From Sphingomonadales bacterium (GTDB lineage Bacteria > Pseudomonadota > Alphaproteobacteria > Sphingomonadales > Sphingomonadaceae), in assembly GCA_028871475.1 (NCBI GenBank), contig JAGWMZ010000004.1, positions 1-64,000 of the forward strand: DNA of 64,000 nucleotides. The letters are read 5' to 3'. Below, piece by piece: positions 2,455 to 42,841 of the stretch. Both the position numbers and the translations under genes were made by a program. Numbering within the stretch: position 1 is the first letter of the stretch; each line of letters begins with the position of its first letter. Under the pieces are notes generated by a model. It was not told where the DNA came from and ran no database searches. It saw only the letters and a list, made by a program, of their open reading frames with translations.

Positions 2455-2675
2455 AGGAAAGATGCGAGGGCCATCGCCCTCGCGCTCCCGTGTGTTCGGA
2501 GACGGAAAGATCGTTTGAGCCTTAGCGCCAGCATCGCCGCGCCGCAGGCTGGAACAGGATAGCGCTGTGCCCGGAATTTCATGCCTGCGGCGCGGCGATG
2601 CTGGCGCAACAACCGGGTGCCACCACCCATGCCAAACTAAAGGGAGCGCGAGGGCGATGGCCCTCGCATCTTTCC
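2455..2675. repeat. Composite palindromic intergenic repeat, copy 2 (full)
   Basis: A' hairpin 2464-2483; B' 2525-2549; B 2583-2607 (perfect 25-bp inverted repeat); A hairpin 2648-2667. Confidence 0.92.
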
Positions 2676-2966: not shown

Positions 2967-2993
2967 TCTGACGACAGCTTGAGGGCTCGCTTG

Positions 2994-3464
2994 ATGTCGG
3001 GCTCGCAGGATAGGACCGCGTCCGGGGGCGAGGAGCCTTTGGGCGCGGTTTCTTGTGTTGCGGCTTATGCGACGCCGCGCCTGCGCATATTGCAGAAGCG
3101 TTCGGATTTCGTTGCGGCCAACAGCGGTTTGCGCGTGGCGCGCGGCGGCGTGGTGTTGCTGGTGCGACCCAATGCCGATGCTGGCATGCGCTTTGGCATT
3201 ACGGTGACCAAGCGGATCGGCAATGCCGTGGTGCGCAACCGGATGAAGCGGCGTCTGCGCGCTCTGGTGCGCGAGATCCTTCCTGTTCATGGCCTTGCCG
3301 GGCATGATCATGTGCTGATCGGCCGCGAGAGCGGGGTGGAGCGCGATTTCGCCACCATGCGCGACGAATTGCTGACCGCGTTGGAGCGTGCCCGCGCCGG
3401 CAAGGGCGACCCGCCGCGCAAGCCGCGATCCGGCCCCCGTTCCGGCCAGAAGCCGAAGCGCTGA
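2994..3464 (+). CDS. rnpA: Ribonuclease P protein component
   Basis: RFGITVTKRIGNAVVRNRMKRRLRALVRE motif directly downstream of rpmH; the exact start is uncertain. Confidence 0.92.
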   Translation: MSGSQDRTASGGEEPLGAVSCVAAYATPRLRILQKRSDFVAANSGLRVARGGVVLLVRPNADAGMRFGITVTKRIGNAVVRNRMKRRLRALVREILPVHGLAGHDHVLIGRESGVERDFATMRDELLTALERARAGKGDPPRKPRSGPRSGQKPKR

Positions 3465-3726: not shown

Positions 3727-5541
3727 GTGAGTAAACAGCCGCAGAACCCGCAAAGCCAGCGCAAGATGATGCTGGCGATGTTGCTGGTGGGGGTCTTCCT
3801 GTTCATCTGGGATATGGGCATCCGCCATTTCTATCCCAATGCCGACAAGCCCAAGCCTGTGGCATCTGCCACGCCGACGCCCGCCGCCACGGTCAAGCCG
3901 ACGCGCGAGGGCGGCCTTGAGACAGTGGGCGACAGGCTGGTCGAGGCGCAAGATCTCAAGACTCAGCTGACCCGTCCGCGCGTGGCGATTGTCGCGCCGG
4001 GTCTGGTCGGTTCGATCAATCTGGCTGGCGGCGTGGTGGATGATCTGTCGCTGCCCGGCTATAAGGAAACGATCGACAAGAACAGCCCGGACGTGCGCCT
4101 CTATTCGCCCGCCGGCACCCCCGCGCAGCATTTCGCGCAGGTCGGCTGGGTCAATGCGCCCGCTGGCATCGCCCTGCCCGATGGCAACACCGTGTGGACC
4201 GCGCCCGCTGGCGCAAAGCTGACGCCGACGACGCCCGTCACGCTGAGTTGGGCCAACACCACCGGCCAGACCTTCACCCTGACCTATGCGATCGACAAGG
4301 ATTACATGATCACGGTGACGCAGAAGCTGGCCAATGCCGGTTCCGCGCCGCTCAAGGTGCAGCCCTTCGCGCTGATCAACCGCACCAGCAAGACGGCCAG
4401 CCAGGATGCATGGAACCTGCATTCGGGCCCCATCGCCAATCTTGATGAGTCGGTGAATTTCGGCCCCAGCTATGATTGCGCCCACAGCTTCTTCCTCGTG
4501 CATTGCACCAACCTGCAAAAGGCCGGGCAGATCGACAATGAGGGCACGCCCCAGTGGCTGGGCTTCACCGACATCTACTGGATGAGCGTGCTGGCCCCTG
4601 CCAATCCGCAGGGCGCCACCAGCGATTTCCGCTCGCTGGGCAATGATCTCTATCGCGCCGACGTGGTTTACCCCGCGCAGACCATCGCGCCGGGCAGCGC
4701 CCAGTCCACCACCACCCGCATCATCGCGGGCGCCAAGGACAATGCGATCCTCGACAAGTATGAGGCGCAGGGCATCAACAAGTTCAGCTATTCGATCGAC
4801 TGGGGCTGGTTCTGGTTCTTCGAAAAGCCAATCTTCGCCCTGCTGCGCACGCTGTTCCATCTGGTCGGCAATTTCGGCGTTGCAATCATGCTGCTGACCG
4901 CCATCGTGCGCGGCATCATGTTCCCCGTGGCCCAGCGCGGCTTTGCCAGCATGGCCGCCATGCGCGCCATCCAGCCCAAGGTGAAGGCGCTGCAGGAACG
5001 CTATAAGGACGACCGGGCCAAGCTTCAGGAAGAGACCATGAAGCTCTACAAGGAGGAGAAGGTCAATCCGCTCGCGGGCTGCCTGCCGATGTTCCTCCAG
5101 ATCCCGGTGTTCTTCGCGCTGTATAAGGTGCTGATGGTCTCCATCGGCATGCGCCACCAGCCCTTCGTGCTGTGGATCAGGGATCTCTCCGCGCCCGATC
5201 CGCTGCACATCCTGAACCTCTTCGGCCTGCTGCCCTTCACGCCGCCCTCCTTCCTGGGCATCGGCATTCTGGCGCTGATCCTGGGCTTCACCATGTGGCT
5301 CCAGTTCAAGCTCCAGCCCGCCGCGACCGACCCTGCCCAGCAGCAGATGATGTCGATCATGCCCTGGATGATGATGTTCATCATGGCGCCCTTCGCCTCG
5401 GGCCTGCTGATCTACTGGATCACCTCGAACCTGCTGACCGTGGCCCAGCAGAAGTACCTCTACTCGAAGCACCCCGGCATGCGGGCGGCGGTCGAGAAGG
5501 AACGCGAAGTGGTGGCCCGCGCCGCCAAGAGCAAGAAATGA
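3727..5541 (+). CDS. yidC: Membrane protein insertase YidC
   Basis: 604 aa; FRSLGNDLYRADVVYPAQTIAPG periplasmic domain and NPLAGCLPMFLQIPVFFALYKVL; syntenic with rpmH/rnpA/yidD. Confidence 0.97.
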   Translation: MSKQPQNPQSQRKMMLAMLLVGVFLFIWDMGIRHFYPNADKPKPVASATPTPAATVKPTREGGLETVGDRLVEAQDLKTQLTRPRVAIVAPGLVGSINLAGGVVDDLSLPGYKETIDKNSPDVRLYSPAGTPAQHFAQVGWVNAPAGIALPDGNTVWTAPAGAKLTPTTPVTLSWANTTGQTFTLTYAIDKDYMITVTQKLANAGSAPLKVQPFALINRTSKTASQDAWNLHSGPIANLDESVNFGPSYDCAHSFFLVHCTNLQKAGQIDNEGTPQWLGFTDIYWMSVLAPANPQGATSDFRSLGNDLYRADVVYPAQTIAPGSAQSTTTRIIAGAKDNAILDKYEAQGINKFSYSIDWGWFWFFEKPIFALLRTLFHLVGNFGVAIMLLTAIVRGIMFPVAQRGFASMAAMRAIQPKVKALQERYKDDRAKLQEETMKLYKEEKVNPLAGCLPMFLQIPVFFALYKVLMVSIGMRHQPFVLWIRDLSAPDPLHILNLFGLLPFTPPSFLGIGILALILGFTMWLQFKLQPAATDPAQQQMMSIMPWMMMFIMAPFASGLLIYWITSNLLTVAQQKYLYSKHPGMRAAVEKEREVVARAAKSKK

Positions 5542-6212
5542 CCCAGCCGCAGGAACAGGCGCCCGAACTCGACCCCGAGCTGGTCGAGCGGGCAAGGCGG
5601 CTCTTCTCGGGCCGGGTGGACTTCCTCCTCTCGGCCCCCGCGCTGAAATTCCTGCCCGACCCAGTGGTGCCCGAAGTGGCCTTCGCGGGGCGGTCGAATG
5701 TCGGCAAGTCGAGCCTGCTCAACGCCATCACCGGCCGCAAGTCGCTGGCGCGCACCTCGGTGACGCCGGGCCGTACGCAGGAGCTGAACTTCTTCGAGGT
5801 GGGCGGCATCGCGGGCGAACTGCCCGATTTCCGCCTCGTCGACATGCCGGGCTATGGTTTCGCCAAGGCCCCGCCCAAGGTGGTGGAGCAATGGCGCAAG
5901 CTGGTGCGTGAATTCCTGCGCGGGCGGGTGGTGCTCAAACGCTGCCTCGTGCTGATCGACAGCCGCCACGGCGTGAAGGATGTCGACCGCGACATGATGG
6001 AGATGCTCGACGGTTCGGCCGTGGGCTATCGCCTGGTGCTGACCAAGGCTGACAAGATCAAGGCAAGCGATCTGGAAGCTGTCCATGCCGCCACCGTTGC
6101 TGAGGCGCGCAAGCATTCGGCGGCCTTTCCGCAGGTCGCTATCACCTCCTCGGAAACCGGGCTGGGGGTGGAGGAACTGCGGGCGGCGGTTCTGGCGGAT
6201 GCTGAATTGTAA
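5538..6212 (+). CDS. engB: Ribosome biogenesis GTP-binding protein YihA/YsxC/EngB
   Basis: VAFAGRSNVGKSSLLNAITGRKSLARTSVTPGRTQELNFF, DMPGYGFAKAP; ATGA overlap with the yidC stop. Confidence 0.95.
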   Translation: MTQPQEQAPELDPELVERARRLFSGRVDFLLSAPALKFLPDPVVPEVAFAGRSNVGKSSLLNAITGRKSLARTSVTPGRTQELNFFEVGGIAGELPDFRLVDMPGYGFAKAPPKVVEQWRKLVREFLRGRVVLKRCLVLIDSRHGVKDVDRDMMEMLDGSAVGYRLVLTKADKIKASDLEAVHAATVAEARKHSAAFPQVAITSSETGLGVEELRAAVLADAEL

Positions 6213-6221
6213 GACGTAAGG

Positions 6222-6442
6222 CGAAGGTGCGAGGGCCATCGCCCTCGCGCTCCCTTTAGTTCGGATGGGGCAGTGGCACCTGGTCGTTGCGCTGGCATCG
6301 CTGCGCCGCAGGCTTTAAAATCTCACGCGCCGTGTTCTCGCTCTTTCTGCCTGCGGCGCGGCGATGCTGGCGCTAGGCTTCCCCTCTGCGCTTCCTCTCC
6401 AAACATCCGGGAGCGCGAGGGCGATGGCCCTCGCATCTTCTC
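6222..6442. repeat. Composite palindromic intergenic repeat, copy 3 (full)
   Basis: A' hairpin 6229-6248; B'/B inverted pair; A hairpin 6415-6434. Confidence 0.92.
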
Positions 6443-6502
6443 TTTTCTTCTTCCAGATAATCCCCTTTGTCCCGCCAAGAACCCCGGCTAGAACGGAGCG
6501 TG

Positions 6503-7474
6503 ATGCGTAACCCACGGACAAAGGCCCCTGAAATGACCCCCAAGACCCTGCACCGCACTTTGGCGACGATGACCACTGCGCTGGCCGGGATGCTGGCTTT
6601 CTCGGCCCAGCCTGTGCTGGCCTGGGGGGAGCTGGGTCATCGCACTGTGGGTGAGATCGCCTATGCCAATGTGAAGCCCGAGGTTCGCGCGCAGATCGAC
6701 GATCTGCTCAAGAATGCCGATGCGATGGGCACCCCGCTGTGCCCGCTCACGAATCTCAGCGATGCGGCGACTTATCCTGATTGTCTGCACGCCTATCAGT
6801 GGCGCTTTGCCTATACGTTTCCGTTCCATTATCAGGACATCGACATCGACAAGCCTTTCGACATCAAGGAAGGCTGTGCCAACAGCATTTGCGTCACCCA
6901 GCAGATCGCCCGTGACCGCCGCATTCTGGCCGATCGCAGCCTGAACGGGCCGACGCGAATGGAGGCGCTGATTTTCCTCACCCATTTCGTGGGTGACCTG
7001 CACCAGCCCCTGCACGCCGCCGAGCATGATCACGACGCGGGTGGCAACACCGTCATCGTCACCAATGTGCCCGCGCCTTCCTATACGCAGGCTGGCAATC
7101 CGCCCAAGGTGATCGACAATTCGTCCAAGCCGGCCAATCTGCACAGCGTGTGGGACACGGTGGTGGTCGAAAGGGCGCAAATGCTGGGCCACATGCCGCC
7201 GGTGCGCGCCTATAGCGAGGGTGACAAGGCCAAGATCGCCGGCGGTGAGGTGGCCGACTGGGCGCAGGAAAGCTGGAGCATGGCGCATGATCTGGTCTAT
7301 CCGCAGGCCTTTGCCCATGAGACCTCCGCCTCGGGCGCCCGGCCGGTGACGGTCACGCTGACGGATGCCGAGCTGGATCATGACGCCGATCTCGCCGCCA
7401 AGCGCATTCTGCAGGCGGGTCTGCGCCTTGCCCGCGTGCTGGATGAGGCGCTGGCCCCCGCGCCAAAGGATTGA
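6503..7474 (+). CDS. S1/P1 nuclease family protein, secreted
   Basis: Signal peptide then WGELGHRTVGEIAYANVKPEV, HFVGDLHQPLHAAEHDHDAGGN, NLHSVWDTVVV: zinc-ligand pattern of S1/P1 nucleases. Confidence 0.9.
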   Translation: MRNPRTKAPEMTPKTLHRTLATMTTALAGMLAFSAQPVLAWGELGHRTVGEIAYANVKPEVRAQIDDLLKNADAMGTPLCPLTNLSDAATYPDCLHAYQWRFAYTFPFHYQDIDIDKPFDIKEGCANSICVTQQIARDRRILADRSLNGPTRMEALIFLTHFVGDLHQPLHAAEHDHDAGGNTVIVTNVPAPSYTQAGNPPKVIDNSSKPANLHSVWDTVVVERAQMLGHMPPVRAYSEGDKAKIAGGEVADWAQESWSMAHDLVYPQAFAHETSASGARPVTVTLTDAELDHDADLAAKRILQAGLRLARVLDEALAPAPKD

Positions 7475-7526
7475 GGAAGGACCGCCGCCTCTTTCGGGGG
7501 GCGGGCGCATTTGCTAGGGGCAGATC

Positions 7527-8696
7527 ATGAACGAAATCGTCCAGCCCGCTGCCGTCTCCGCCGCTCTGGCCTCGGGCGATGTCACCTCGTTGGCCGAAGC
7601 GCTGATCGCCTGCCCCAGCGTGACACCCGCCGAAGGGCTGGTGTTCGATTGTCTCGAAGCCATGTTGCGGCCGCTGGGCTTTGACGTGCACCGCTTTGTG
7701 GCGGGCGCGGCGCCCGATGGCCCCGTGGAGAACATGTTTGCCATCCGGCGCGGCCCGGCGGGCAGCCGCCACTTCGCCTATGCCGGGCACCTCGACGTGG
7801 TGCCGCCCGGTGACGGCTGGACCAGCGCGCCCTTTGCTCCCGCGCGGCGGGGCGATTTGCTCTATGGTCGCGGCGCGGTGGACATGAAAGGTTCGATCGC
7901 GGCTTTTGTGGCAGCGATGGCCCGCGTTCCGGTCGAAGCGGGCACCGTCAGCCTGATCATCACCGGCGATGAGGAAGGTCCGGCCACCCATGGCACGCTC
8001 GCCATCATCGATCATATGCAGGCGGTGGGCGACATCCCCGATCTGTGCTTGGTGGGTGAGCCAACCAGCGTTCATCGCCTGGGCGACATGATCAAGGTCG
8101 GCCGGCGCGGCAGCGTCAACATCTGGTTCGAGGTTGAGGGCGTGCAGGGCCATGTTGCCTATCCCCATCTGGCCGACAATCCGCTGACCCGGCTCGTCGC
8201 GCTGCTGGGCGAGCTCAAGGGCCATGTGCTTGACGAGGGCACCGACTGGTTTCAGGCCAGCAATCTCGAGATCACCGATGTCGCCTGCGGCAATCCGGCC
8301 ACCAATGTCATCCCGCCGCGCGCCTCGGCTCGCGTCTCCATCCGCTTCAACGACCTGCACACCGGCCAGTCGCTGGCTGACTGGGCGCAGGAGGTCGCTG
8401 CGCGTCACGGCGCTACCGCCCGCCCGGTCATCTCGGGCGAGGCCTTCCTGACCCCGCCTGGGTGTTTCTCCGATCTGGTGGTCAGCGCGATCCGCGAGGA
8501 AACCGGCGTCGACCCGGACATTTCCACCAGCGGCGGCACCTCGGATGCCCGCTTCCTCAAAAACCTGTGCCCGGTGATCGAGTTCGGCCTGTGCAACGCC
8601 ACCATGCACAAGCGGGACGAGGCGGTTGCCATCGCCGATCTTGAGGCGCTGGAGCGGATTTTCGTGAAGATCACTCTCGCCGGGTTGCAGGGGTAA
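7527..8696 (+). CDS. dapE: Succinyl-diaminopimelate desuccinylase
   Basis: LIACPSVTPAEG, YAGHLDVVPPGDGWTSAPF, YGRGAVDMKGSIAAFVAA, ITGDEEGPATHGT. Confidence 0.95.
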   Translation: MNEIVQPAAVSAALASGDVTSLAEALIACPSVTPAEGLVFDCLEAMLRPLGFDVHRFVAGAAPDGPVENMFAIRRGPAGSRHFAYAGHLDVVPPGDGWTSAPFAPARRGDLLYGRGAVDMKGSIAAFVAAMARVPVEAGTVSLIITGDEEGPATHGTLAIIDHMQAVGDIPDLCLVGEPTSVHRLGDMIKVGRRGSVNIWFEVEGVQGHVAYPHLADNPLTRLVALLGELKGHVLDEGTDWFQASNLEITDVACGNPATNVIPPRASARVSIRFNDLHTGQSLADWAQEVAARHGATARPVISGEAFLTPPGCFSDLVVSAIREETGVDPDISTSGGTSDARFLKNLCPVIEFGLCNATMHKRDEAVAIADLEALERIFVKITLAGLQG

Positions 8697-8698
8697 AA

Positions 8699-8770
8699 GG
8701 GGAAAGTGCGAGCGCCATTGAGCGAGCTCTTGTCGCGAGCGACAAGCCGGGGCGTCCTTGCGTTCTCTTT
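8699..8770. repeat. Solo A-type repeat with palindromic loop, copy 4
   Basis: GTGCGAGCGCCATTGAGCGAGCTCTTGTCGC-GA-GCGACAAGCCGGGGCGTCCTTGCG. Confidence 0.75.
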
Positions 8771-8980
8771 ATGTCGGTCTAGGCATCCGCGCTGGCCATG
8801 TTTCGTATTTTTCTTGCGTGCTGCTCCTGGCAAACCTTCAAAAACCGTTGCCCCCTGCCACAGCCGGGCATGGCGGGGCATACGTCCTTTGCCGCCATTG
8901 CCGCTTGCCCCCTGCCTTGGTAGCAGGTGACATTGAACCATCCATGAGAAGCCCGGATCGATGGGCGTATGCGGGGGACC

Positions 8981-10291
8981 ATGGCGAAGCGGCTGACTTA
9001 TTATATATTGATTGCCCTGGTGGCCGGAATTGTCGTGGGCTACGGCCTGCATCAGGCCTTTGATCCCAAGGACCCGGTGCTCACCACCATCGCGGACATG
9101 TTGAAGCTGCTGCCCGACGTGTTCCTGCGGCTGATCAAGATGATCATCGCGCCGCTGATCATGGCCACCATCGTGACAGGCATCGCGGGTATGGGCGATT
9201 CGACCGCATTGGGCCGCATTGGCGCCAAGGCGCTGGCGTGGTTCATCACCTCCAGCGTCGTATCGTTGCTGCTGGGCATGGTGCTGGTCAATGCGTTTCA
9301 GCCCGGCGCTGGGCTGGCGCTGACCCCCGCCACCGGGCTGGGTGATCTGGCGACCAGCCAGCTCACCTTCCGCCATTTCATCATCGAGATTTTCCCGACC
9401 AGCGCGCTTGACGCCATGGCGCAGAACAATGTGTTGCAGCTTCTGGTCTTCTCGGTCTTCGCGGGTGTGGGCCTGTCGGCCATTGGCGAAAAGGGCCGCA
9501 TCGTCGTCGATTTCGCCGATGCCATCGTCACGCTGATGCTGCAGATCACCGGCTATGTCATGTCGGTCTCGCCGCTCGCCGTGTTTGGCGCCATGGCGGC
9601 GATTGTGGGGGTGAAGGGCCTTGGCATTCTGGCCACCTATGGCGTGCTGGTCACCGAGTTCTACGGCGGCCTCATCCTGCTGTGCCTGCTGACGCTGGGC
9701 GCTGGCGCGCTGTTTCTGGGCAAGCGCTCGCTCACCCTGTTCCGCTACATCCGCGAGCCGGTGCTGATCTCCTTCTCCACCGCCTCGTCCGAAGCCAGCC
9801 TGCCCAAGATGTTCGAGCAGCTCGACCGTTTTGGCGTGCCGCGCCGGGTTTCGGGCTTCGTGCTGCCGCTGGGCTATGCCTTCAACCTCACCGGCTCGAT
9901 GATGTATGCCAGCTTCGCCTCGATCTTCATCGCGCAGGCCTATGGCATCCATCTCTCCATCGGCACGCAGCTTCTCATGCTGCTCACGCTGATGGTCTCG
10001 TCCAAGGGGATTGCGGGCGTGCCGCGCGCATCGCTGGTGGTGATCGCCGCGACGCTGAACCAGTTCCACCTGCCGGTCGAGGGTATCGCCCTGCTGCTGG
10101 CGGTGGACACTTTCCTCGACATGGGGCGCAGCGCCACCAGCGTCCTTGGCAATGCCGTGGCCACCGCCATCGTGACGCGGACCGAGGGTATGCTCCAGCC
10201 GCTGATGGACCCGGAGGCCGAGCATCCCGCGGCGCCGCATGATACCGCGGAGCATGGGCTGCATGGGTTGAATGTCGATCCCAATCAGTAA
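8981..10291 (+). CDS. Dicarboxylate/amino acid:cation symporter (DAACS family)
   Basis: LPDVFLRLIKMIIAPLIMATIVTGIAGMGD and GYAFNLTGSMMYASFASIFIAQAYG; start could be 8969 or 8981. Confidence 0.9.
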   Translation: MAKRLTYYILIALVAGIVVGYGLHQAFDPKDPVLTTIADMLKLLPDVFLRLIKMIIAPLIMATIVTGIAGMGDSTALGRIGAKALAWFITSSVVSLLLGMVLVNAFQPGAGLALTPATGLGDLATSQLTFRHFIIEIFPTSALDAMAQNNVLQLLVFSVFAGVGLSAIGEKGRIVVDFADAIVTLMLQITGYVMSVSPLAVFGAMAAIVGVKGLGILATYGVLVTEFYGGLILLCLLTLGAGALFLGKRSLTLFRYIREPVLISFSTASSEASLPKMFEQLDRFGVPRRVSGFVLPLGYAFNLTGSMMYASFASIFIAQAYGIHLSIGTQLLMLLTLMVSSKGIAGVPRASLVVIAATLNQFHLPVEGIALLLAVDTFLDMGRSATSVLGNAVATAIVTRTEGMLQPLMDPEAEHPAAPHDTAEHGLHGLNVDPNQ

Positions 10292-10398
10292 GGGATGAAA
10301 GCATGGGGCGCCCAAGCCCCCTGCACCCCGGAACGTCTCCCGACGTGAAGGGAGCGGTGGGGGAGGGGCAGGGCAAACGTCCCGCCGCCGGAGGTTCT

Positions 10399-10524
10399 CA
10401 TGCCTGCGGCGCGGCGATGCTGGCGCTCGGGTTCGATCCTGCGCAATCTCACCGAAAGAAAGGGAGCGCGAGGGTGCCTCAGCGTGTCGCTCGCGACAAG
10501 CGCTCGCTTATGGCCCTCGCACCT
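10399..10524. repeat. Half element (B plus A with palindromic loop), copy 5
   Basis: GCCTGCGGCGCGGCGATGCTGGCGC then GCGAGGGTGCCTCAGCGTGTCGCTCGCGACAAGCGCTCGCTTATGGCCCTCGC; right end touches the nth stop. Confidence 0.85.
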
Positions 10525-11170
10525 ATCCCTTCTTCTTCTGCAAAACCTTATCCTTGAACCCGCACAGATCCATCACCGGGCAGCGCCAGCATTCCGGCTT
10601 GCGCGCCTTGCAGATATAGCGCCCGTGCAGGATCAGCCAGTGATGCGCCCCCACGCGAAAGGGGCCGGGCACCTTCTTCTCCAGTTGCTTTTCCACCGCT
10701 TCGGGCGTTTTGCCCTTGGCCAGCCCCGTGCGGTTGCCCACGCGGAAGATATGCGTATCGACCGCGAAGGTCTCCATGCCAAAGGCGCAGTTGAGCACCA
10801 CATTGGCCGTCTTGCGCCCCACGCCGGGCAGCGCCACCAACGCATCGCGGTCAGCCGGCACCTCACTGCCGTGTCGGTCCACCAGGATCTGCGCCATGGC
10901 CATCACATTGGCCGCCTTGGTGTTGAACAGGCCGATGGTCTTGATGTGATCCTTCAGCCCCTCGAGCCCTAGTTCGAGCATGTCCTGCGGAGTCTTCACG
11001 ATCTCGAACAGGGCGCGCGTTGCCTTGTTGACGCCGACATCGGTGGCCTGGGCGGACAGCGTCACCGCCACCAGCAACTGATAGGTGTTGCCGAATTCCA
11101 GCTCGGTCTGCGGGTCGGGGTTGCCCTCGGCCAGACGGCGGAAGAATTCGAAGATGTCGGCTTTTTTCAT
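10523..11170 (-). CDS. nth: Endonuclease III
   Basis: LVAVTLSAQATDVGVNKATRALFEIVKTPQDML, LPGVGRKTANVVLNCAFGMETFAVDTHIFRV, FeS Cys cluster near the C-terminus. Confidence 0.96.
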   Translation of the reverse strand: MKKADIFEFFRRLAEGNPDPQTELEFGNTYQLLVAVTLSAQATDVGVNKATRALFEIVKTPQDMLELGLEGLKDHIKTIGLFNTKAANVMAMAQILVDRHGSEVPADRDALVALPGVGRKTANVVLNCAFGMETFAVDTHIFRVGNRTGLAKGKTPEAVEKQLEKKVPGPFRVGAHHWLILHGRYICKARKPECWRCPVMDLCGFKDKVLQKKKG

Positions 11171-11195
11171 TTGGTGGGGTGTAGAAGGTTGAAGG

Positions 11196-11402
11196 GGAAA
11201 GTGCGAGGGCCATCGCCCTCGTGCTCCCTTTAATGTGGCCAGCGTAGTGGCGCCCGGTCATTACGCCAGCATCGCCGCGCCGTGGACACGCAGTGCTGCC
11301 GTTTCCGGCCTGCGGCGCGGCGATGCTGGCATTTGGCGGCCCATCTGCGCTTCCCTCTCCAACCGAAAGGGAGCGCGAGGGCGATGGCCCTCGCATCTTG
11401 TC
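11196..11402. repeat. Composite palindromic intergenic repeat, copy 6 (full)
   Basis: A' at about 11203-11222, B'/B pair, A at 11375-11394. Confidence 0.9.
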
Positions 11403-11407
11403 TTTTC

Positions 11408-12136
11408 TTACAACCCCAGCACTTCCCTCATCCCATAGCGTCCCGGCTTCTGACCGATCAGCCACAGCGCCCCTTTCAGCGCGCCGCGTGCAAAGATCCC
11501 GCGGTTTTCCGCCAGATGCGAAAACGCCAGCCTTTCATTGTCGGCCAGGAAATGCACCGTGTGGTCGCCCGCCACACTTCCGCCGCGCAGGGCGGCGAAA
11601 CCGATGGTCCCGGCCTCGCGCTTGCCGGTAATGCCGTCGCGCCCGCGCACGGCATGGTCAGCCAGGGCGATCTGGCGCCCGCGCGCGGCGGCTTCGCCCA
11701 GCAGCAGCGCCGTGCCGGAGGGAGCATCGACCTTCATGCGGTGGTGGGTTTCGACGATCTCGATGTCCCAGTCCTCGCCAAGGCGCTTTGCGGCTTCCTC
11801 GACCAGATATGCCAGCATGTTGACACCCAGCGAGGTGTTGCCGGTCTGCAGCACGGCGATCGTGTCGCTGGCGTGGTCGATCAGCCAGTGGTGGCGCTCT
11901 TCAAGGCCGGTGGTGCCGATGAGGATGGGTTTTCCGGCGGCGACGGCTGCGTCGAGATTGCCTTCCAGCGCGGCGGGGGAAGAGAAGTCGATCAGCACGT
12001 CGCTGGCGGCGGCGAGCGCTTCCACATCGCCGTCCCGGTCGATGCCGCCGGCGACGGTATGCCCGCTTGCGTGCAGCGCCTCGGCGATGGCCCGCCCCAT
12101 GCGTCCTTCGCTGCCGATGATGCCGATGTTTGCCAT
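11408..12136 (-). CDS. dapB: 4-hydroxy-tetrahydrodipicolinate reductase
   Basis: MANIGIIGSEGRMGRAIAEALH, GTTGLEERH, ETHHRMKVDAPSGTALLLGEAAA; start trimmed from the longer listed ORF. Confidence 0.95.
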   Translation of the reverse strand: MANIGIIGSEGRMGRAIAEALHASGHTVAGGIDRDGDVEALAAASDVLIDFSSPAALEGNLDAAVAAGKPILIGTTGLEERHHWLIDHASDTIAVLQTGNTSLGVNMLAYLVEEAAKRLGEDWDIEIVETHHRMKVDAPSGTALLLGEAAARGRQIALADHAVRGRDGITGKREAGTIGFAALRGGSVAGDHTVHFLADNERLAFSHLAENRGIFARGALKGALWLIGQKPGRYGMREVLGL

Positions 12137-12220
12137 ATGCTCTCTCCACTCGCCTGAAGCCGAGCCATGGCCTGAGGCGGAGAGGTTGGCAAGGCGGGGC
12201 TTTGCAGGCACACCGGCGCC

Positions 12221-12931
12221 ATGGCCCAGATCCGCAACATCCTTATCCTGACCGGCGCCGGCATCAGCGCCGAGAGCGGCATCCGCACCTTTCGCGCCAG
12301 CGATGGATTGTGGGAGGATCATCGCATCGAGGATGTGGCGACGCCCGAGGGTTTCGCGCGGGACCCGGTGCTGGTCCATCGTTTTTATGATGCGCGGCGG
12401 ACAGGGGCGCTGGCAGCGCAGCCCAATGCGGCGCATCTGGCGCTGGCCCGGCTGGAGCGGGAATGGGCGCAGGCCGCTCGGGGCAGCGTCACGCTGGTCA
12501 CCCAGAATGTCGATGACCTGCATGGGCGGGCGGGCAGCAAGGGGCTGATTCACATGCATGGCGAACTGGCCAGCGCATGGTGCGCCGCCTGCGACGCGCG
12601 GCACCGCTGGATGGGAACGCTGATCGACGCCCCCGCCTGCCCGGCCTGCGGCAAAGCGGCGCTGCGGCCTGACATCGTGTGGTTCGGCGAAATGCCCTAT
12701 CGCATGGAGGAGATCTATGCCGCCCTGCGCGAGGCTGATCTCTTCGTGTCGATCGGCACCTCAGGGGCGGTCTATCCGGCGGCAGGCTTCGTGCGCGCCG
12801 CGCGTGAGGTCGGCGCGCGATGCCTCGAACTCAATCTGGAGCGGTCGGAGGGATCACGCTGGTTCCATGAAACCCGGCTCGGCATGGCGGGGCAACTGGT
12901 GCCTGCCTGGGTGGAGGAGATGCTAGGCTGA
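12221..12931 (+). CDS. cobB: NAD-dependent deacylase, sirtuin class III
   Basis: ILILTGAGISAESGIRTFRASDGLWEDHRIEDVATPEGF, TQNVDDLHGRAGS, HMHGEL, two Cys pairs. Confidence 0.94.
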   Translation: MAQIRNILILTGAGISAESGIRTFRASDGLWEDHRIEDVATPEGFARDPVLVHRFYDARRTGALAAQPNAAHLALARLEREWAQAARGSVTLVTQNVDDLHGRAGSKGLIHMHGELASAWCAACDARHRWMGTLIDAPACPACGKAALRPDIVWFGEMPYRMEEIYAALREADLFVSIGTSGAVYPAAGFVRAAREVGARCLELNLERSEGSRWFHETRLGMAGQLVPAWVEEMLG

Positions 12932-13708
12932 GCAGCCCTGGCAGGCCGGATCCTTGGGCTGGGCGAAGGGGCGCAGCGAAGGTGCCAGCCCGTCCACCAC
13001 CAGCACCTTGCCCCATTGCGGGTCAGAGAGAGAGGGCCCGCCAAAGCCCGCGCCCACGCCTGCGGCATTCAGGATGATGCGGATGGCGCTCATCGCCGCC
13101 ATGGTGCCCACCATGCCGACAAAGGCGCCCAGCACGCCATCGGCGGCGCATGTGTCGCAGTCGGTCGCGTCGAAAGCATCGCCGACATAGCAGCGATAGC
13201 AGGCATGGCCGGGCAGATGCCCCGCGAAATTGGCCACCTGCCCCTGAAACCGCCCGACAGCCGCGCTGGTGAGGGGGATGCCCAGCGCCACGCAGGCATC
13301 GGAAACGGCAAGGCGGGTGGCGAAATTGTCGCAGCCATCCAGCACCAGCGTGGGGGTGCCGAGCAGTGCCTTGGCATTGTCGGCGGTGATGCGCGCGGCA
13401 TGGGTGGTGACGGTGATGGCAGGGTCGAAACGCGCGATCCAGCGCGCGGCGGCCTGCGCCTTGCCGGTGCCGATGTCTCCCGTCGCGAAGATCGTCTGGC
13501 GCTGAAGATTGCTCTCCTCGACCACGTCATCGTCGATGAGAGTGAAGGCACCCACGCCCGCCGCCGCCAGATATTGCAGGGCTGGCGAGCCGATGCCGCC
13601 GCAGCCCACCATGGTGATGTGGGCCTGTGCCAAGGCCATTTGTCCCGCGCCGCCGACTTCGGGAAGGACAATGTGGCGGGCGAAGCGGTTCAGGCGGTCG
13701 GGGGTCAT
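12923..13708 (-). CDS. ThiF/MoeB/HesA family sulfur-carrier adenylyltransferase
   Basis: MTPDRLNRFARHIVLPEVGGAGQMALAQAHITMVGCGGIGSPALQYLAAAGVGAFTLIDDD, CYRCYVGD, CDTCAADGVLG. Confidence 0.92.
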   Translation of the reverse strand: MTPDRLNRFARHIVLPEVGGAGQMALAQAHITMVGCGGIGSPALQYLAAAGVGAFTLIDDDVVEESNLQRQTIFATGDIGTGKAQAAARWIARFDPAITVTTHAARITADNAKALLGTPTLVLDGCDNFATRLAVSDACVALGIPLTSAAVGRFQGQVANFAGHLPGHACYRCYVGDAFDATDCDTCAADGVLGAFVGMVGTMAAMSAIRIILNAAGVGAGFGGPSLSDPQWGKVLVVDGLAPSLRPFAQPKDPACQGCSA

Positions 13709-13729
13709 GCGAGGGGATTTAGGGGAAGA

Positions 13730-13953
13730 AAAGGGAAGATGCGAGGGCCATCGCCCTCGCGCTCCCTTTATTTCGGAGAGGGTGGTGGCACCCAATCATC
13801 GCGCCCGCCTCGCTGCGCCGCAGGCTTGAATCGGAGAGAGTGTGTCTGGTGTTTCAAGCCTGCGGCGCGGCGATGCGCGCGCTGTGGGTAAGTTTGTGCG
13901 CAAAGGTGGGCATTCAAGGGAGCGCGAGGGTGATGACCCTCGCACTTATCCCT
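13730..13953. repeat. Composite palindromic intergenic repeat, copy 7 (full)
   Basis: A' 13741-13760; A 13924-13943 with paired change GCGAGGGT-GATG-ACCCTCGC. Confidence 0.9.
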
Positions 13954-13997
13954 TTATTCTTCACCACTTGTCCACAGCCCGTAAACAGGCTTGTCCC

Positions 13998-15524
13998 TCA
14001 GCTTTCCAACTGACGCAGCAGCGAGCGCACATCGCCATCCATATCGGCATCGCGCGTGCGCAGATCCTCGATCAGCCGCACAGCGTGGATCACCGTCGAA
14101 TGGTCGCGTCCGCCGAATTTACGCCCGATTTCGGGGTAGGAACGCGGGGTGAGCACTTTGGAGAGATACATCGCCACCTGGCGCGGACGCACCACGGCGC
14201 GCGCCCGGCGCTTGGACGACATTTCCGTTCGGTCCACGCGGTAGAACTGGCAGACCGTGCGCTGGATCTCGTCGATGGTGATGCGCTTGCGGTTGGCGCT
14301 GAGAATATCCGTGAGCTGGTCCTCGGCCAGCGCCAGCGAGACCGGCTGGCCGGTCAACTGGGCATAGGCGATCAGCTTGTTGAGGCCGCCGACCAGCTCG
14401 CGCACATTGCGGTTGATGGTGCGGGCGAGGAATTCGATGACATCGGCAGGCACGGCCGTTGGCGAGGAAAAGCGCGTCAGGCGGTTCTCCAGGATCGAGC
14501 GGCGCAGTTCGATGTCAGCGGGCTGGATGTCGGCGACGAGACCCATCGAGAGGCGCGAGAGGAGGCGCTGCTCCACGCCGTCGAGCGCCTGGGGCGCGCG
14601 ATCGGCGGCGAAGACGAGGCGTTTGCCTTCGCCCAGCAGCGAATCGATCGTGTAGAGCAGTTCCTCCTGCGCGCTGGCCTTGCCGATGATGAACTGGATA
14701 TCGTCCACCAGCAGCAGGTCGAAGCCGCGCAGGCGGGCCTTGAACTCGATGGTCTGGTTCTGGCGCAGGGCCTGCACGAACTCGACCATGAACCGCTCGG
14801 CCGAGCAGTAGAAGATGCGCGCGCGCGGATGGTTGGCGAGGAAGGCATGGCCGATAGCATGCATCAGATGCGTCTTGCCCTGCCCCGTGGCGGCCTTGAG
14901 ATAGAGCGGCGAGAACTGGGGTTGTTCGAGCGCCGACATGCGCTGGGCGGCATTGGCGGCCAGCACATTCGACGTGCCGGTGACAAAGCTGGCGAAGGTC
15001 AGCGAGGGATCAAGGCCAATCGAGGCGAGACCCAGCGTATCAGTGACCACGCTCGCCACTTCGCCCACCGAAACGCCATGCGCCGGCGAGGGCGCCCGCT
15101 GAACGCGGTCATTGGCCGGCGCCGGGTCGCGGGTCAGACGCAGCTCGGGCATGGCGCGGCGGCCGGGGTGGACCGAGATGCGGACATGGCGCACGTCACG
15201 CGTGATCTTCCAGGCCAGTGTCAGCCGGTCGGCAAAGCGGTCGGCCACCCAATTGGCGGAAAATTCGGTGGGCAGATAGAGGTCGAGCGTGCCGGTCTCC
15301 TTGCAAAAGCCGCCCAGTTGGATCGGCTTGATCCACTGGTTGAACAATTGCTGGCCCAGATCCTTGCGCAGGCCAAGGCTGATATCAGCCCAGTCCGCCG
15401 CCAGATCGACCGCATCCTGATCTTCCGCATTGGCAGGTGCGTTTGCCTTCCTGCCCGGCGCCGCGTCGGCGCGCCGCCCACCCCACATGTTTCCTGTCAC
15501 CCGCTGATGCTCCCGATCCGACAT
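13998..15524 (-). CDS. dnaA: Chromosomal replication initiator protein DnaA
   Basis: NPSLTFASFVTGTSNVLA-like region, YLKAATGQGKTHLMHAIGH, C-terminal GRDHSTVIHAVRLIEDL; start chosen at MSDREHQRV (15536 is also possible). Confidence 0.96.
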   Translation of the reverse strand: MSDREHQRVTGNMWGGRRADAAPGRKANAPANAEDQDAVDLAADWADISLGLRKDLGQQLFNQWIKPIQLGGFCKETGTLDLYLPTEFSANWVADRFADRLTLAWKITRDVRHVRISVHPGRRAMPELRLTRDPAPANDRVQRAPSPAHGVSVGEVASVVTDTLGLASIGLDPSLTFASFVTGTSNVLAANAAQRMSALEQPQFSPLYLKAATGQGKTHLMHAIGHAFLANHPRARIFYCSAERFMVEFVQALRQNQTIEFKARLRGFDLLLVDDIQFIIGKASAQEELLYTIDSLLGEGKRLVFAADRAPQALDGVEQRLLSRLSMGLVADIQPADIELRRSILENRLTRFSSPTAVPADVIEFLARTINRNVRELVGGLNKLIAYAQLTGQPVSLALAEDQLTDILSANRKRITIDEIQRTVCQFYRVDRTEMSSKRRARAVVRPRQVAMYLSKVLTPRSYPEIGRKFGGRDHSTVIHAVRLIEDLRTRDADMDGDVRSLLRQLES

Positions 15525-15933
15525 TATCCGTACCACACCCGACCAAGTTCACAGCCCACGATTACTCATGCCTCCTTAGACCCTTCGCGCACCGGCAAAA
15601 CGCGCTGACCCCATGCCGCAAATACTTCTCCGTCCCGCCCATGGCGGGCGGGGGGATGGTCCTGCGTCGAGATCCGTTTTGCCGCCCAAGATGCCCCTCG
15701 GTTCGGGCACAGCCTGTGCAGCTGCCCCGATCACCCCCCGATCGGACATCCAGATGGTCAAGTCTGCATGAAGCCCCGAGCCGTGTATGCCCGGGGCAGA
15801 GGGCGATCTATGGACGAGTTTGGGGTCAGAGCAAGGGTCGTCCTGCAAAATTTTTGAAATAAATCACCTTGACAGGCCACAGGTGGCGCAAATCTCACGT
15901 TGGCGCATTAAAGCACTGATTCAAGGAGATAAA

Positions 15934-15987
15934 ATGTGGAAGATTTTTGACAAAACCTCCCGAATCGCGGGATTTCCAGCACTTTAG
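15934..15987 (+). CDS. Putative 17-aa micropeptide MWKIFDKTSRIAGFPAL
   Basis: Strong Shine-Dalgarno AAGGAGATAAA directly before ATG; intergenic between dnaA and rpsT. Coding status unproven. Confidence 0.35.
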   Translation: MWKIFDKTSRIAGFPAL

Positions 15988-16028
15988 GTCAGCCGGCTGC
16001 GCCTCGCGTCAAACCGTTTTGGTGAGCA

Positions 16029-16066
16029 CAGAAAAAGCCGACGGGAGATTCCCATCGGCTTGTTTC
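16029..16066 (-). terminator. Rho-independent terminator of rpsT, possibly bidirectional
   Basis: Minus strand reads AAGCCGATGGGA-ATC-TCCCGTCGGCTTTTTCT; plus strand reads GCCGACGGGA...TCCCATCGGCTTGTTT. Confidence 0.75.
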
Positions 16067-16155
16067 CGAGAAGCTACTTAAGCAATCGCCTCTGACCGCC
16101 CTCTGGCCGGCGACTCGCCTTCAGGTGAGTCGCCCCGGAGCGGGCTGTTCCCGGC

Positions 16156-16419
16156 TCAGGCCAGGCCGGCAACCGCCTTGCTCAGACGCGACATCTTGCG
16201 CGCCACGGTGTTCTTGTGCAGCACGCCGCGGGCCACGCCACGGGCCAGCTCGGGCTGGGCCTCGTGGAGGGCGGCAGCGGCCGCGGTCTTATCACCACCG
16301 GCGATGGCGGCTTCGACCTTCTTCACGAAGGTGCGGATGCGCGAAAGGCGGGCACCATTGATCTCAGCGCGCTTCTCGTTGCGGCGGAGGCGCTTGCGGG
16401 CTTGCGGCGTATTGGCCAT
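16156..16419 (-). CDS. rpsT: 30S ribosomal protein S20
   Basis: [64 protein letters not shown]. Confidence 0.97.
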
Positions 16420-16580
16420 GTCTATCCTCAAACTGGCCAGAACGGCCGAAAATGCTGCGAAAATCATGAATGGGGCCCGATGCCGCGAGGCACAGGCCGC
16501 CTTGAAGGCAGGGCCCTTAGCGAGGGGTTGGCGAATCGTCAAGCGAAGAGACGCTCATCCCCGGCAATCAGCGCCGGGAA

Positions 16581-17417
16581 TCAGCGTTGGCAGGCCGGAC
16601 ACCAGAAACTCGAACGCCCCCCTTGTACCACGCGCGCGATGGAGGCGCCACAGCCCGGTGTCAGACAGGCGTCGCCCTCGCGCCCATAGACGCGCCAGTT
16701 GGCGGCAAAATAGCCAAGCTCGCCATTGGGCTGCGCATAATCGCGGATGGTCGAGCCGCCCGCGAGAATCGATTCGGAGAGAACATCGCGAATGGCCGGC
16801 ACCAGCCGCGCCAGCTCCGCCCGTTTTACCTTCCCACCCGGCCGCAAGGGGCTGACACCCGCGCGGTGCAGCGCCTCGCAGACATAGATGTTGCCCAGCC
16901 CTGCCACGATGCCCTGATCGAGCAGCAACACCTTGACCGGCCCCAGCCGCCCCTTCAGCGCCGCTGCCAGATGCGCGACCGACAGCGCCTCGCCCAGAGG
17001 TTCCGGCCCCAGCGCGGCAAAGGCGGGCCACAGCCTCAGCGCGTCGGTCGGCACAAGGTCCACCGAGCCGAAGCGCCGCGCATCATTGAGCGCCAGTACC
17101 GCGCTGGCCAGATCGCCCTCCGCCTGGGTGGTGAGCACCAGATGGTCGTGTTTCTCCAGCGCATCGGGCTCGATTCGCCAGCGGCCGGACATCCCCAGAT
17201 GGAAGACCATCGTCACATCGCGGTCGGTATGGACCAGCCCATATTTCGCCCGCCGCGACAGGCCGGTGATGCGCGCGCCCGTCAGCGTCTGGGCCAGATC
17301 GGGCGGGAAGGGGCGGCGCAATCCTTCACGGCGGACCTCGACGCGCGCGATGCGGCGGTCCTGCAGATAGGTGGAAAGGCCGCGGATGGTGGTTTCGACT
17401 TCGGGAAGCTCTGGCAT
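16581..17417 (-). CDS. mutM: Formamidopyrimidine-DNA glycosylase
   Basis: MPELPEVETTIRGLSTYL, LLLDQGIVAGLGNIYVCEALHRAGVSP, C-terminal zinc finger CLTPGCGASIARVVQGGRSSFWCPACQR. Confidence 0.97.
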   Translation of the reverse strand: MPELPEVETTIRGLSTYLQDRRIARVEVRREGLRRPFPPDLAQTLTGARITGLSRRAKYGLVHTDRDVTMVFHLGMSGRWRIEPDALEKHDHLVLTTQAEGDLASAVLALNDARRFGSVDLVPTDALRLWPAFAALGPEPLGEALSVAHLAAALKGRLGPVKVLLLDQGIVAGLGNIYVCEALHRAGVSPLRPGGKVKRAELARLVPAIRDVLSESILAGGSTIRDYAQPNGELGYFAANWRVYGREGDACLTPGCGASIARVVQGGRSSFWCPACQR

Positions 17418-17430
17418 GGGGGTTATGTAA

Positions 17431-17515
17431 GAAGAGAAAAGGGAAAGTGCGAGCGCCATAAGCGTGCGCTTGCCGCACGCGACAAGCTGGGGCGCCCTCG
17501 CACTTGCGCCTTTTC
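17431..17515. repeat. Solo A-type repeat with palindromic loop, copy 8
   Basis: GTGCGAGCGCCATAAGCGTGCGCTTGCCGCACGCGACAAGCTGGGGCGCCCTCGCAC. Confidence 0.75.
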
Positions 17516-17558
17516 TCCCCCTTTGCTCCTTCGGCCAAATTCCCTAAGGCACTCCACC

Positions 17559-18320
17559 ATGACCGACAGCGCCCCGAACGAACCCCAGACCGCTTCCTTT
17601 GGATATGAGGAGGTGGCCATTGACGAGAAGGTCGCCCGTGTGGGGGAGGTCTTCTCCAGCGTGGCGAAGAAATATGACATCATGAATGATGCGATGTCGG
17701 GCGGCTTGCACCGGGTCTGGAAGGATCGTTTCGTGCGCGCGGTGAAGCCTCAGCCGCATGAGCAGATCCTCGACATGGCGGGCGGCACGGGCGACATCGC
17801 GTTCCGCATGGCCAAGCGCGGCGCCAACATCACCGTGTCGGACATCAATCAGGACATGCTCGATGTCGGCATGGAGCGGGCACCCAAAAAGCTGGGCGAG
17901 AGAGCCCAAACCCTCACCTGGAGCCGCCAGAACGCCGAGGAACTGACGTTCGAGAGCCGCAGCTTCGATGCCTACACCATCGCCTTTGGCATCCGCAACG
18001 TCACCCGCATCGACAAGGCGCTGGCCGAGGCGCATCGCGTTTTGCGCTTTGGCGGGCGTTTCTTCTGCCTTGAATTCTCCACCACCACCTGGCCGGGTTT
18101 CAAGGAGGTCTATGACGCCTACTCCCACAAGCTGGTGCCGCAGATCGGGCAAATGATTGCGGGCGATGAGGCGAGCTACCGCTATCTCATCGAATCGATC
18201 CGCCGCTTCCCGCCCATGCCCGCGTTCGAGGGCATGATCCGCGCCGCCGGCTTCACCCAGACGAAGGTGGAGCCGATCATGGGCGGTCTGGTGGCGATCC
18301 ATTCGGGCTGGAAGGCCTGA
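17559..18320 (+). CDS. ubiE: Demethylmenaquinone/2-methoxy-6-polyprenyl-1,4-benzoquinol methyltransferase
   Basis: VFSSVAKKYDIMNDAMSGGLHRVWKDRFV, ILDMAGGTGDIAFRMAKRGA, FGIRNVTRIDKALAEAHRVLRFGGRFFCLEFS. Confidence 0.96.
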   Translation: MTDSAPNEPQTASFGYEEVAIDEKVARVGEVFSSVAKKYDIMNDAMSGGLHRVWKDRFVRAVKPQPHEQILDMAGGTGDIAFRMAKRGANITVSDINQDMLDVGMERAPKKLGERAQTLTWSRQNAEELTFESRSFDAYTIAFGIRNVTRIDKALAEAHRVLRFGGRFFCLEFSTTTWPGFKEVYDAYSHKLVPQIGQMIAGDEASYRYLIESIRRFPPMPAFEGMIRAAGFTQTKVEPIMGGLVAIHSGWKA

Positions 18321-18324
18321 TCCC

Positions 18325-19872
18325 TTGGCGACATCCCTGACGCATATCGCGCGGCTGCTCAGCTGGGGCCGCATTCTGGCCCGCCATGGCGCGCTGCGCA
18401 TCATCGAGGATGCGCCCGCCACGCCGGGCCCGGTGCGCCGCCTGTGCCGCATCGCGCGCTTTGGCGCCCGCGTGCCGGCCGTGCCCGATTATGCCGGGGC
18501 CTTCCGCGCCATCGGTCCTGCCGCCATCAAGCTGGGCCAGACGCTGGCCACCCGCCCCGATCTGGTGGGCGACGACGCCGCGCATAATCTGCTGGCCTTG
18601 CAGGACAGCCTGCCCCCGGTGCCTTTCGCTGCCATTCGCGCGGAAATCGAGAATGCCTTTGGCCGCCCGGTGAGCGATCTCTTCGCTGAGATCGAGGAGG
18701 AGCCGGTGGGCGCGGCTTCCATCGCGCAGGTCCATCGCGGGCGGCTGCATGATGGCAGGCCGGTGGCGATCAAGGTGCTGCGCCCGGGCATTCGCGACAA
18801 ATTTGCCCATGACATATCCACCTATGAATGGGCGGCAGCGCATCTGGAGGCGTTGGGCGGCGAGGCAGGGCGTCTGCGCCCGCGCCTCATCATCGCCAAT
18901 TTCCGCCGCTGGACCCTGCGCGAGCTGGACCTGCGCCGCGAGGCGGCCTCCTCGAGCGAGCTGGCCAATGTGATGGCCGGGGTCGAGCATTACCGCGTGC
19001 CCACCATCGACTGGGACCGCACCTGTGGCCGCGTGCTGACGATGGAATGGATCGACGGCATCAAGGTGAGCGACCATGCCGCCCTGCGTGCCGCCGGGCA
19101 TGATCTGCCCGATCTGGCGCGCCGTCTGGTCATCGCCTTTCTGACGCAGGCAATCCATGCTGGCTATTTCCATGCCGACATGCATCAGGGCAATCTTTTC
19201 ATCCAGGCCGATGGCACCATCGCCGCCATCGATTTTGGCATCATGGGCCGCATCAACCGGCAGGCGCGCGTCTGGCTGGGCGAGATTCTCCATGGCCTCA
19301 CCACCGGCAATTACCGCCGCGTGGCGGAAATCCATTTCGAGGCGCAATATGTGCCCTCCTATCACTCGGTGGAAGAGTTCGCGACCGCCCTGCGCGCGGT
19401 GGGCGAGCCGATGCGCGGCAAGCCGGTGAAGGACCTCTCGGTCGGCCAGATGCTCGACGGGCTCTTTGCCATCACGCGCGATTTCGACATGGTGACCCAG
19501 CCGCATCTGCTGCTGCTGCAAAAGACCATGGTGATGGTGGAGGGGCTGGCCACCAGCCTCGACCCTGACATCAACATGTGGAATGTGTCCGGCCCCTTCG
19601 TCTCGGCCTGGATGCGCGACGAGCTGGGCCCCGAGGCCGCCATTGCCGAGCGCGCGCAGGGGGTCATGAAGACGCTGCGCCGCCTGCCCGAGGTGATCGA
19701 CCAGCTCGAAAACATGGTGCCCAAAAAGGGCGCCGCCCCCGAACCGCCCCCGCTGCCCGAGATCACGCTGATGTGGAGCGGTGGTCAACGCAACCTTATC
19801 CGTTTTGCCACATATGTGGTCGCCGCTCTGGCAGGAGGTCTGGCGACGTGGATGGTGACGGCCTGGCACTGA
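18325..19872 (+). CDS. ubiB: Ubiquinone biosynthesis regulatory kinase UbiB
   Basis: GPAAIKLGQTLATRPDLVGDD, EEEPVGAASIAQVHRG, FHADMHQGNLFIQADGTIAAIDFGIMGRI; TTG start. Confidence 0.95.
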   Translation: MATSLTHIARLLSWGRILARHGALRIIEDAPATPGPVRRLCRIARFGARVPAVPDYAGAFRAIGPAAIKLGQTLATRPDLVGDDAAHNLLALQDSLPPVPFAAIRAEIENAFGRPVSDLFAEIEEEPVGAASIAQVHRGRLHDGRPVAIKVLRPGIRDKFAHDISTYEWAAAHLEALGGEAGRLRPRLIIANFRRWTLRELDLRREAASSSELANVMAGVEHYRVPTIDWDRTCGRVLTMEWIDGIKVSDHAALRAAGHDLPDLARRLVIAFLTQAIHAGYFHADMHQGNLFIQADGTIAAIDFGIMGRINRQARVWLGEILHGLTTGNYRRVAEIHFEAQYVPSYHSVEEFATALRAVGEPMRGKPVKDLSVGQMLDGLFAITRDFDMVTQPHLLLLQKTMVMVEGLATSLDPDINMWNVSGPFVSAWMRDELGPEAAIAERAQGVMKTLRRLPEVIDQLENMVPKKGAAPEPPPLPEITLMWSGGQRNLIRFATYVVAALAGGLATWMVTAWH

Positions 19873-19898
19873 CGGCATGGCCCGGGCGGCCCCCGGCG

Positions 19899-21008: not shown

Positions 21009-21032
21009 GGAAGATTGGCGGCAAGCGCGGGC

Positions 21033-21140
21033 TTAGAGCGAACTCCGTTCCGATTGCATAGGACGGATCGCTCCAGTTTTTTGTTTTACCGCGTTTTCGC
21101 AAGTCACCAGATGATTCCATCTGGTTCGAAAACGCTCTAA
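21033..21140. repeat. 108-bp MITE-like element with 8-bp terminal inverted repeats
   Basis: Ends TTAGAGCG ... CGCTCTAA; internal hairpin CCAGATG-ATTC-CATCTGG; noncoding. Confidence 0.55.
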
Positions 21141-21189
21141 TGGCCCTCACATCTTCTCTTTTCCTCTTCCCCCCGCTAGAACCGCGCGC

Positions 21190-22377: not shown

Positions 22378-22834
22378 CCCCGTTCCCCTGCGTGTGATGC
22401 GCCTGCCCCATGGTGAGGGGCTGCCGTTGCCCGCCTATGCCACCAGCGGGGCGGCGGGCATGGATGTGGTCTCGGCGGAGGATGTGACCATCGCGCCGGG
22501 CGCCCGCTATGCGGTGGCCACCGGGCTGGCGGTGGCCATTCCCCATGGGTTCGAAATTCAGGTCCGCCCGCGCTCGGGCCTTGCGCTCAAGCACGGGATT
22601 ACCGTGCCCAACGCGCCGGGCACCATCGATTCGGACTATCGCGGGGAGGTGAAGGCGATCCTCATCAACCATGGCACCGAGCCCTTCGAGATTCGGCGTG
22701 GTGACCGGGTGGCTCAGCTTGTTGTGGCGCCGGTGGTGTTGGGAAGCTGGATGGAAGTCGCCGAACTGAACGCCACCGCGCGGGGCGAGGGTGGTTTCGG
22801 GTCGACTGGTGGCGTGGTTTCGCTGGGGAATTAA
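22364..22834 (+). CDS. dut: Deoxyuridine 5'-triphosphate nucleotidohydrolase
   Basis: [70 protein letters not shown] start inside the coaBC 3' end. Confidence 0.95.
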
Positions 22835-22840
22835 GACAAA

Positions 22841-23060: not shown

Positions 23061-23070
23061 CTCCATTTTC

Positions 23071-40030: not shown

Positions 40031-40110
40031 AAAAAGGGAAGGTGCGAGGGCGCCCTAGCTTGTCGCTCGCGACAAGCGCTCGCTTAGTGGCCTCGCATCT
40101 TTCTTTCCCT
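40031..40110. repeat. Solo A-type repeat with palindromic loop, copy 10
   Basis: GTGCGAGGGCGCCCTAGCTTGTCGC-TC-GCGACAAGCGCTCGCTTAGTGGCCTCGCATC. Confidence 0.75.
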
Positions 40111-42835: not shown

Positions 42836-42841
42836 TCCTTC

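Follow-up and report, generated by a model that had tools for sequence, protein, structure and literature searches.

A Novosphingobium repeat built from two facing hairpins looks, and probably works, like a REP dimer

The window analyzed here, a stretch of 64,000 nucleotides that forms positions 1 to 64000 of contig C24 in a 4.97-Mb, 92-contig Novosphingobium assembly, contains rnpA (2979–3464), dnaA (13998–15488) and a recurrent intergenic element. The original prediction had listed six full copies (2455, 6222, 11196, 13730, 22841 and 42608) and one cut by the window edge, and all of these are present. The cut copy is a right half on the forward strand (1–141; B 38–48, A core 97–123, pyrimidine tail), the contig starting inside the repeat. 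The full element at 2446–2686 (A′ core 2463–2489, A core 2642–2668) separates a Mg-chelatase-like gene (ChlI family) from rnpA and is the sole divergent-gap case. Those at 6211–6453 (A′ 6228–6254, A 6409–6435) and 11185–11413 (A′ 11202–11228, A 11369–11395) occupy tandem gaps, the former after a GTPase gene, at a site also occupied in N. rosa, and the latter between an endonuclease III-like gene and dapB. The element at 13723–13962 (A′ 13740–13766, A 13918–13944) lies at the dnaA 3′ end and has a compensated stem (GGGT/ACCC). Two others fill convergent gaps: 22835–23070 (A′ 22849–22875, A 23027–23053), between a dUTPase gene and a tRNA synthetase (W/Y) gene, and 42600–42844 (A′ 42617–42643, A 42800–42826; arm types I and II), between an M28 peptidase gene and a GH92 gene. 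Previously overlooked were a half element (10400–10520), a remnant (21140) and three type-2 hairpins (8700, 17449 and 40044). We annotate the half element, B-spacer-A with an inner type-2 hairpin in its A loop, at 10400–10540 on the forward strand, the type-2 elements at 8696–8765 (outer arms GTGCGAG..., inner CTTGTCGCGAGCGACAAG), 17440–17515 and 40036–40105, and the A-hairpin remnant at 21140–21170; N. rosa and the near-complete relative G108 carry a full element at the sites of both the first type-2 element and the remnant. Scanning the window against Rfam gave no match for the repeat, the sole match being a TPP riboswitch elsewhere (61977–62084, reverse strand, 72.3 bits).

A full element reads A′-arm-B′-centre-B-arm-A and contains two hairpins with GGGAGC heads pointing inward; the module order predicted earlier (A′-spacer-B′-centre-B-spacer-A) is seen in the named copies, as is the mirrored pair of spacers near 6270 and near 60. 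The outer unit is a hairpin with an 8-bp stem and a fixed head, GGGAGC-GCGAGGGC-GATG-GCCCTCGC-A, and the bases preceding the head are mostly TAAA or AAAA. Paired hairpins (-+ orientation, heads inward) are separated by ∼178 to 187 bp, and outside each lies a pyrimidine tract of ∼18 nt, the first 12 nt of which are 93% pyrimidine and 53% T, not a strong T run. The centre is the palindrome GCCTGCGGCGC, the B core, between mosaic arms. Across 62 halves, conservation is 98.8% for the A core, 98.4% for the B core, and 69% for the spacer. At least three arm types (I, II, and III) are variously combined, and with 12 I-I, 11 I-II, and 4 other full elements in this genome, about half having two different arm types, the repeat is a mosaic rather than a sequence with fixed arms. 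The earlier description, an imperfect palindrome whose arms span about 95 bp, thus holds for elements with arms of the same type and fails for the others (I-II 11, others 4).

Related hairpins were also observed. A second hairpin family, CTTGTCGCgaGCGACAAG, sits inside the loop of the same outer stem at 8700, 10468, 17449, and 40044 of the window, and sequence related to 10460–10535 recurs many times in N. rosa at 83 to 92% identity. Three loci (L131:2525, L148:4053, and L123:3780) share the layout with another outer stem (GCAGGGGG / CCGGGGGG) and another head, CCCCCG replacing GCTCCC. In genome G134, direct tandem copies with a CCGAGGG stem and different arms are spaced at 169 bp (L293:683–1046); this version is a parallel family that shares the GGGAGC head.

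The claim that the sequence is a high-copy family was borne out in the whole genome, which holds at least 70 copies of the ∼200-base repeat. The outer hairpin core GGGAGCGCGAGGGCGATGGCCCTCGCA gave 105 matches at up to three mismatches and the reversed-pattern control none, and a covariance model of the half element (99 positions, covering B-spacer-A) detected at least 146. None of 102 A cores falls within a called gene, in agreement with the intergenic location assigned to every copy. The window's contig has the most places of any contig in the list of A-core matches, and it and three others (C25, C42, and C75) start at or within a copy, as expected if repeats break assembly. Among 150 congeneric genomes, 64 carry the core, with the bulk in a few and 0 to 6 copies in most others; counts reach 92 in G108, 167 in G134, 186 in N. 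rosa NBRC 15208 (G030), and 200 in N. profundi EaN21-2 (G144). A family-wide search of 201 genomes from 96 genera found one other positive genus, with three copies whose stems are compensated. The repeat family is nearly restricted to Novosphingobium and is abundant in only a few of its species. A phage or plasmid origin was rejected, as viral contigs contained no exact core and the plasmid search gave one weak core match.

In G108, copies are concentrated on the origin side of the main chromosome. Of the 97 listed places with a plausible hairpin, the 4.16-Mb C1, which makes up 58% of the genome, has 94 and other replicons have 3. Of 92 elements, 54 are no more than 500 kb from an end of C1, against an expectation of 22 (P ∼ 1e-12), and sampled GC skew places the origin on the element-rich side and the terminus near 2 Mb.

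Stem covariation was examined in copies picked by the head and 5′ arm, the distal 3′ arm being used solely to assign length classes. Pairing at the variable inner stem position is intact in all 196 copies (shuffled mean, 176.0), and all four Watson-Crick combinations (C:G, T:A, G:C, and A:T) occur there. In a second class, which has a TAA loop, the two inner positions are paired in 56 and 54 of 57, and in other species the hairpin GGGAGC-CCGAGGGC-GATG-GCCCTCGG has its outer pair flipped from G:C to C:G. Of 81 elements compared (own genome and N. rosa), 30 have identical alleles in both hairpins (shuffled mean, 33), and among the 52 with any uncommon allele, only 1 is matched. Selection on the long palindrome was therefore rejected, since outer hairpins within an element match no more than chance. 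Because stems are compensated, yet the two hairpins of one element are unmatched, the maintained unit is the local hairpin and not the 220-bp palindrome. Heterodimer preference is not claimed, the N. rosa loci having been picked by the common allele. Folded as RNA, one window element reaches −170.7 kcal/mol (z −14.2 versus shuffles) and another −137.5 kcal/mol (z −8.5 versus shuffles); the stem pairing fits RNA and single-stranded DNA alike and does not separate them.

Placement relative to genes, called with a purpose-built gene caller, was scored in 560 kb of sequence from the window's genome around elements, with a minimum gap length of 30 bp. An element is present in 44 of the 70 convergent gaps, in 23 of the 199 tandem ones, and in 1 of the 84 divergent ones. 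These fractions are inflated by sampling around elements, which does not explain the contrast between gap classes (convergent excess, P = 7e-21; divergent deficit, P = 5e-8). The classified elements of N. rosa comprise 27 convergent, 18 tandem, and no divergent cases. Where a core faces a gene 3′ end, its outer edge is a median of 16 nt away, and in convergent gaps the element occupies almost the entire gap, leaving scant room for another terminator. A GC-rich hairpin with a T-rich tract at gene 3′ ends (the tail composition given above) has the anatomy of an intrinsic terminator, and a terminator scan flagged several window copies. From sequence, the element is probably a two-way transcription stop between the tail ends of genes. 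One report (PMC3733652) places REPs, including those of the sphingomonad S. wittichii, between convergent and unidirectional genes near 3′ ends and, where genes converge, less than 20 bp from each of the two 3′ ends.

Comparison with relatives revealed both shared sites and gain or loss. Of 12 element sites of our genome with both flanks found, N. rosa has an element at 11; in the reverse direction, the figure is 10 of 15. Both counts are biased toward shared sites, since N. rosa loci were selected by the presence of an exact core. N. rosa has an element (L084:4212–4460) where the corresponding locus here (L145) has none, and G108 has one (L288:9910–10270) between two genes whose ends overlap in our window (12870–12990). 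At one clean site, comparing G108 (C1:203470–203712) with window 12870–12990, no target-site duplication was seen. A bare hairpin at L160:8135 corresponds to a full N. rosa element at the same site; such a hairpin would be left if an element lost the DNA between its two direct GCGAGGGC repeats. Elements also mark chromosome rearrangement: the synteny breaks to G108 and N. rosa in window 4000–23900 both fall on elements (13730 and 22841), and in N. rosa two junctions (L031 and L032) that join parts of our L160 and L123 bear elements. Recombination between copies would be a simple reading of these rearrangements.

In six low-copy Novosphingobium genomes, inverted exact cores with heads inward enclose 1.6 to 2.7 kb of foreign-looking sequence (L163, L164, L165, L166, L168, and L175), with a GC content of 0.46 to 0.56 versus 0.58 to 0.63. 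The inserts encode, among other products, a frameshifted Drt2 reverse transcriptase (L163:3344–5457; padloc 9e-89), ParA and a SIR2 protein (L166:3449–5923), an HNH protein (L168), and a DUF6119 protein (L175). Single cores adjoin a PDC-S49 protein (L173:1758–4107; 1.9e-189) and a type VI retron RT (L179:1–1986; 9e-48). Several core-bordered inserts are at uvrA-argG, where inserts of ∼1.5 to 3 kb between uvrA and an uncharacterized HTH-like gene vary across Novosphingobium (L218 to L257). Testing this site in 40 genomes gave variable inserts with or without cores, the cores being present in ∼10; our genome and N. rosa have core hairpins there and no such cargo. As uvrA-argG inserts occur in many species without a core, cores are not required, and a role as obligatory cassette boundary was rejected. 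It is doubtful that the inward-facing hairpins double as gene-cassette boundaries or landing pads; the inserts could equally well have gone into an old element, and a link between cores and the inserted defence genes of low-copy species is possible, though unproven. If true, REP-like hairpins would be an entry route for single defence genes into chromosomes, often at the uvrA-argG hotspot.

The REP-associated RAYT proposed in the original prediction was sought as PF01797 (Y1_Tnp). None was found in our genome (G000) or in six other high-copy genomes (G030, G108, G134, G144, G002, and G087); the search was positive in E. coli and other controls, and the domain is present in some low- or zero-copy genomes (G003, G021, G025, G029, and G047). 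There is thus no cognate RAYT in the tested high-copy genomes now, and a RAYT was rejected as mobilizer; no other mobilizer was found. The RAYT may have been lost, a different enzyme may be at work, or recombination may have spread the copies. The HTH-like gene beside the core was rejected as a source, as it accompanies the core mainly at uvrA-argG and has no Pfam match.

The inverted ends with fixed inward orientation, the length of ∼200 bp, and the presence or absence between species are also what would be seen of a MITE that has the A hairpins as terminal inverted repeats and depends on an ordinary DDE transposase supplied from elsewhere. However, the one clean site shows no evident target-site duplication, both ends are compensated hairpins in their own right and the two are unmatched, solitary ends are common, and no autonomous relative with the same ends was recognized; we consider a MITE unlikely. 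Alternatively, a host terminator of one sequence type could have been multiplied by gene conversion and local duplication instead of transposition. The 3′-end position and pyrimidine tail agree with this, as do sites largely common to N. rosa and the headless simple hairpins with the same stem in some convergent gaps (L160:8135 and others), but termination needs neither a conserved B core nor inward heads, most congeners have near zero copies, and a full element occupies the site of genes that overlap in our genome, which makes this account improbable as well.

If the element were neither a terminator nor a DNA element but a structured RNA, either cis-regulatory or small, its very stable fold and hairpin covariation would be accounted for. 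Such an origin is hard to credit, given that Rfam has no match, reverse-complement symmetry yields the same structure on both strands, the spacer is only 69% conserved, and the position is after genes, not before them. We favor, as fairly likely, a non-autonomous REP-type (REPIN-like) family that has spread in a few lineages and now sits mainly at 3′ ends as half-terminators or RNA stabilizers. Two GGGAGC-headed hairpins joined head to head across a mosaic spacer would, as a non-autonomous unit, have multiplied in a few lineages by past transposition, through some mobilizing activity, and its copies would now be retained mainly at gene 3′ ends. Each hairpin with its outward pyrimidine tract may then form half of a two-way intrinsic terminator, or a 3′-end RNA stabilizer, for convergent genes.

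The likeness to REP, BIME, and REPIN repeats drawn in the original prediction stands for the hairpins, the conserved unpaired head, the inverted dimers, the mosaic spacers, the copy number, and the 3′-end placement, and fails for the RAYT and the head tag. As in REPs and REPINs, a short GC-rich palindrome recurs in high copy between genes, forms inverted dimers of fixed spacing (∼178–187 bp apart), shows compensatory stem changes (196/196), and lies between convergent or unidirectional genes (44 convergent, 23 tandem, and 1 divergent). The head is GGGAGC and neither GT(A/G)G nor a GTAG/CGTC tag, and a cognate RAYT is absent. With REP-dimer or REPIN architecture and these two departures from defining features, the family is best filed as a new RAYT-less, GGGAG-headed variant of REP dimers and not as a member of the GTAG or CGTC super-families; the Novosphingobium repeat looks, and probably works, like a REP dimer. 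The view that it is not a named family was upheld by Rfam, and no published description was found in the partial set of article texts covered. A concrete question, how dimers multiply without the usual enzyme, is raised by a REP-type family whose head differs and whose high-copy genomes, as far as tested, all lack a RAYT; closely related sequenced species offer copy numbers from 0 to ∼200. For annotation, the repeat accounts for spurious 'GSARAMALA' reading frames and for contig ends in Novosphingobium.

Among known systems, the GTAG/CGTC REP super-families, as presented in the text of PMC3733652, share short GC-rich hairpins, an unpaired conserved tag, head-to-head dimers and heterodimers, structured variable spacers, and 3′-end placement; the GGGAGC tag, neither GTAG nor CGTC, sets our family apart from the sequences given in that text. 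P. fluorescens REPINs (Bertels and Rainey 2011, PMC3116915) likewise consist of two inverted REPs and a spacer, are extragenic and in high copy, and can fold into one long hairpin, but have a RAYT in the same genome, which the Novosphingobium repeat lacks. The P. putida REP TGTGGGAGCGGGCgTGCCCGCGAA (Nunvar et al. 2010, PMC2817692) also has GGGAGC at the hairpin foot and differs in its GTGG head, cognate RAYT, and stem sequence. BIMEs, which are mosaic REP arrays, resemble our elements in the mosaic of recurring modules (arm types I, II, and III) and the 169-bp tandem copies of G134, although the elements of our genome are single dimers and not arrays. Bidirectional intrinsic terminators similarly place a GC-rich hairpin beside a pyrimidine tract between convergent genes, whereas the Novosphingobium element is much longer and has a conserved B core and paired, inward-headed hairpins.
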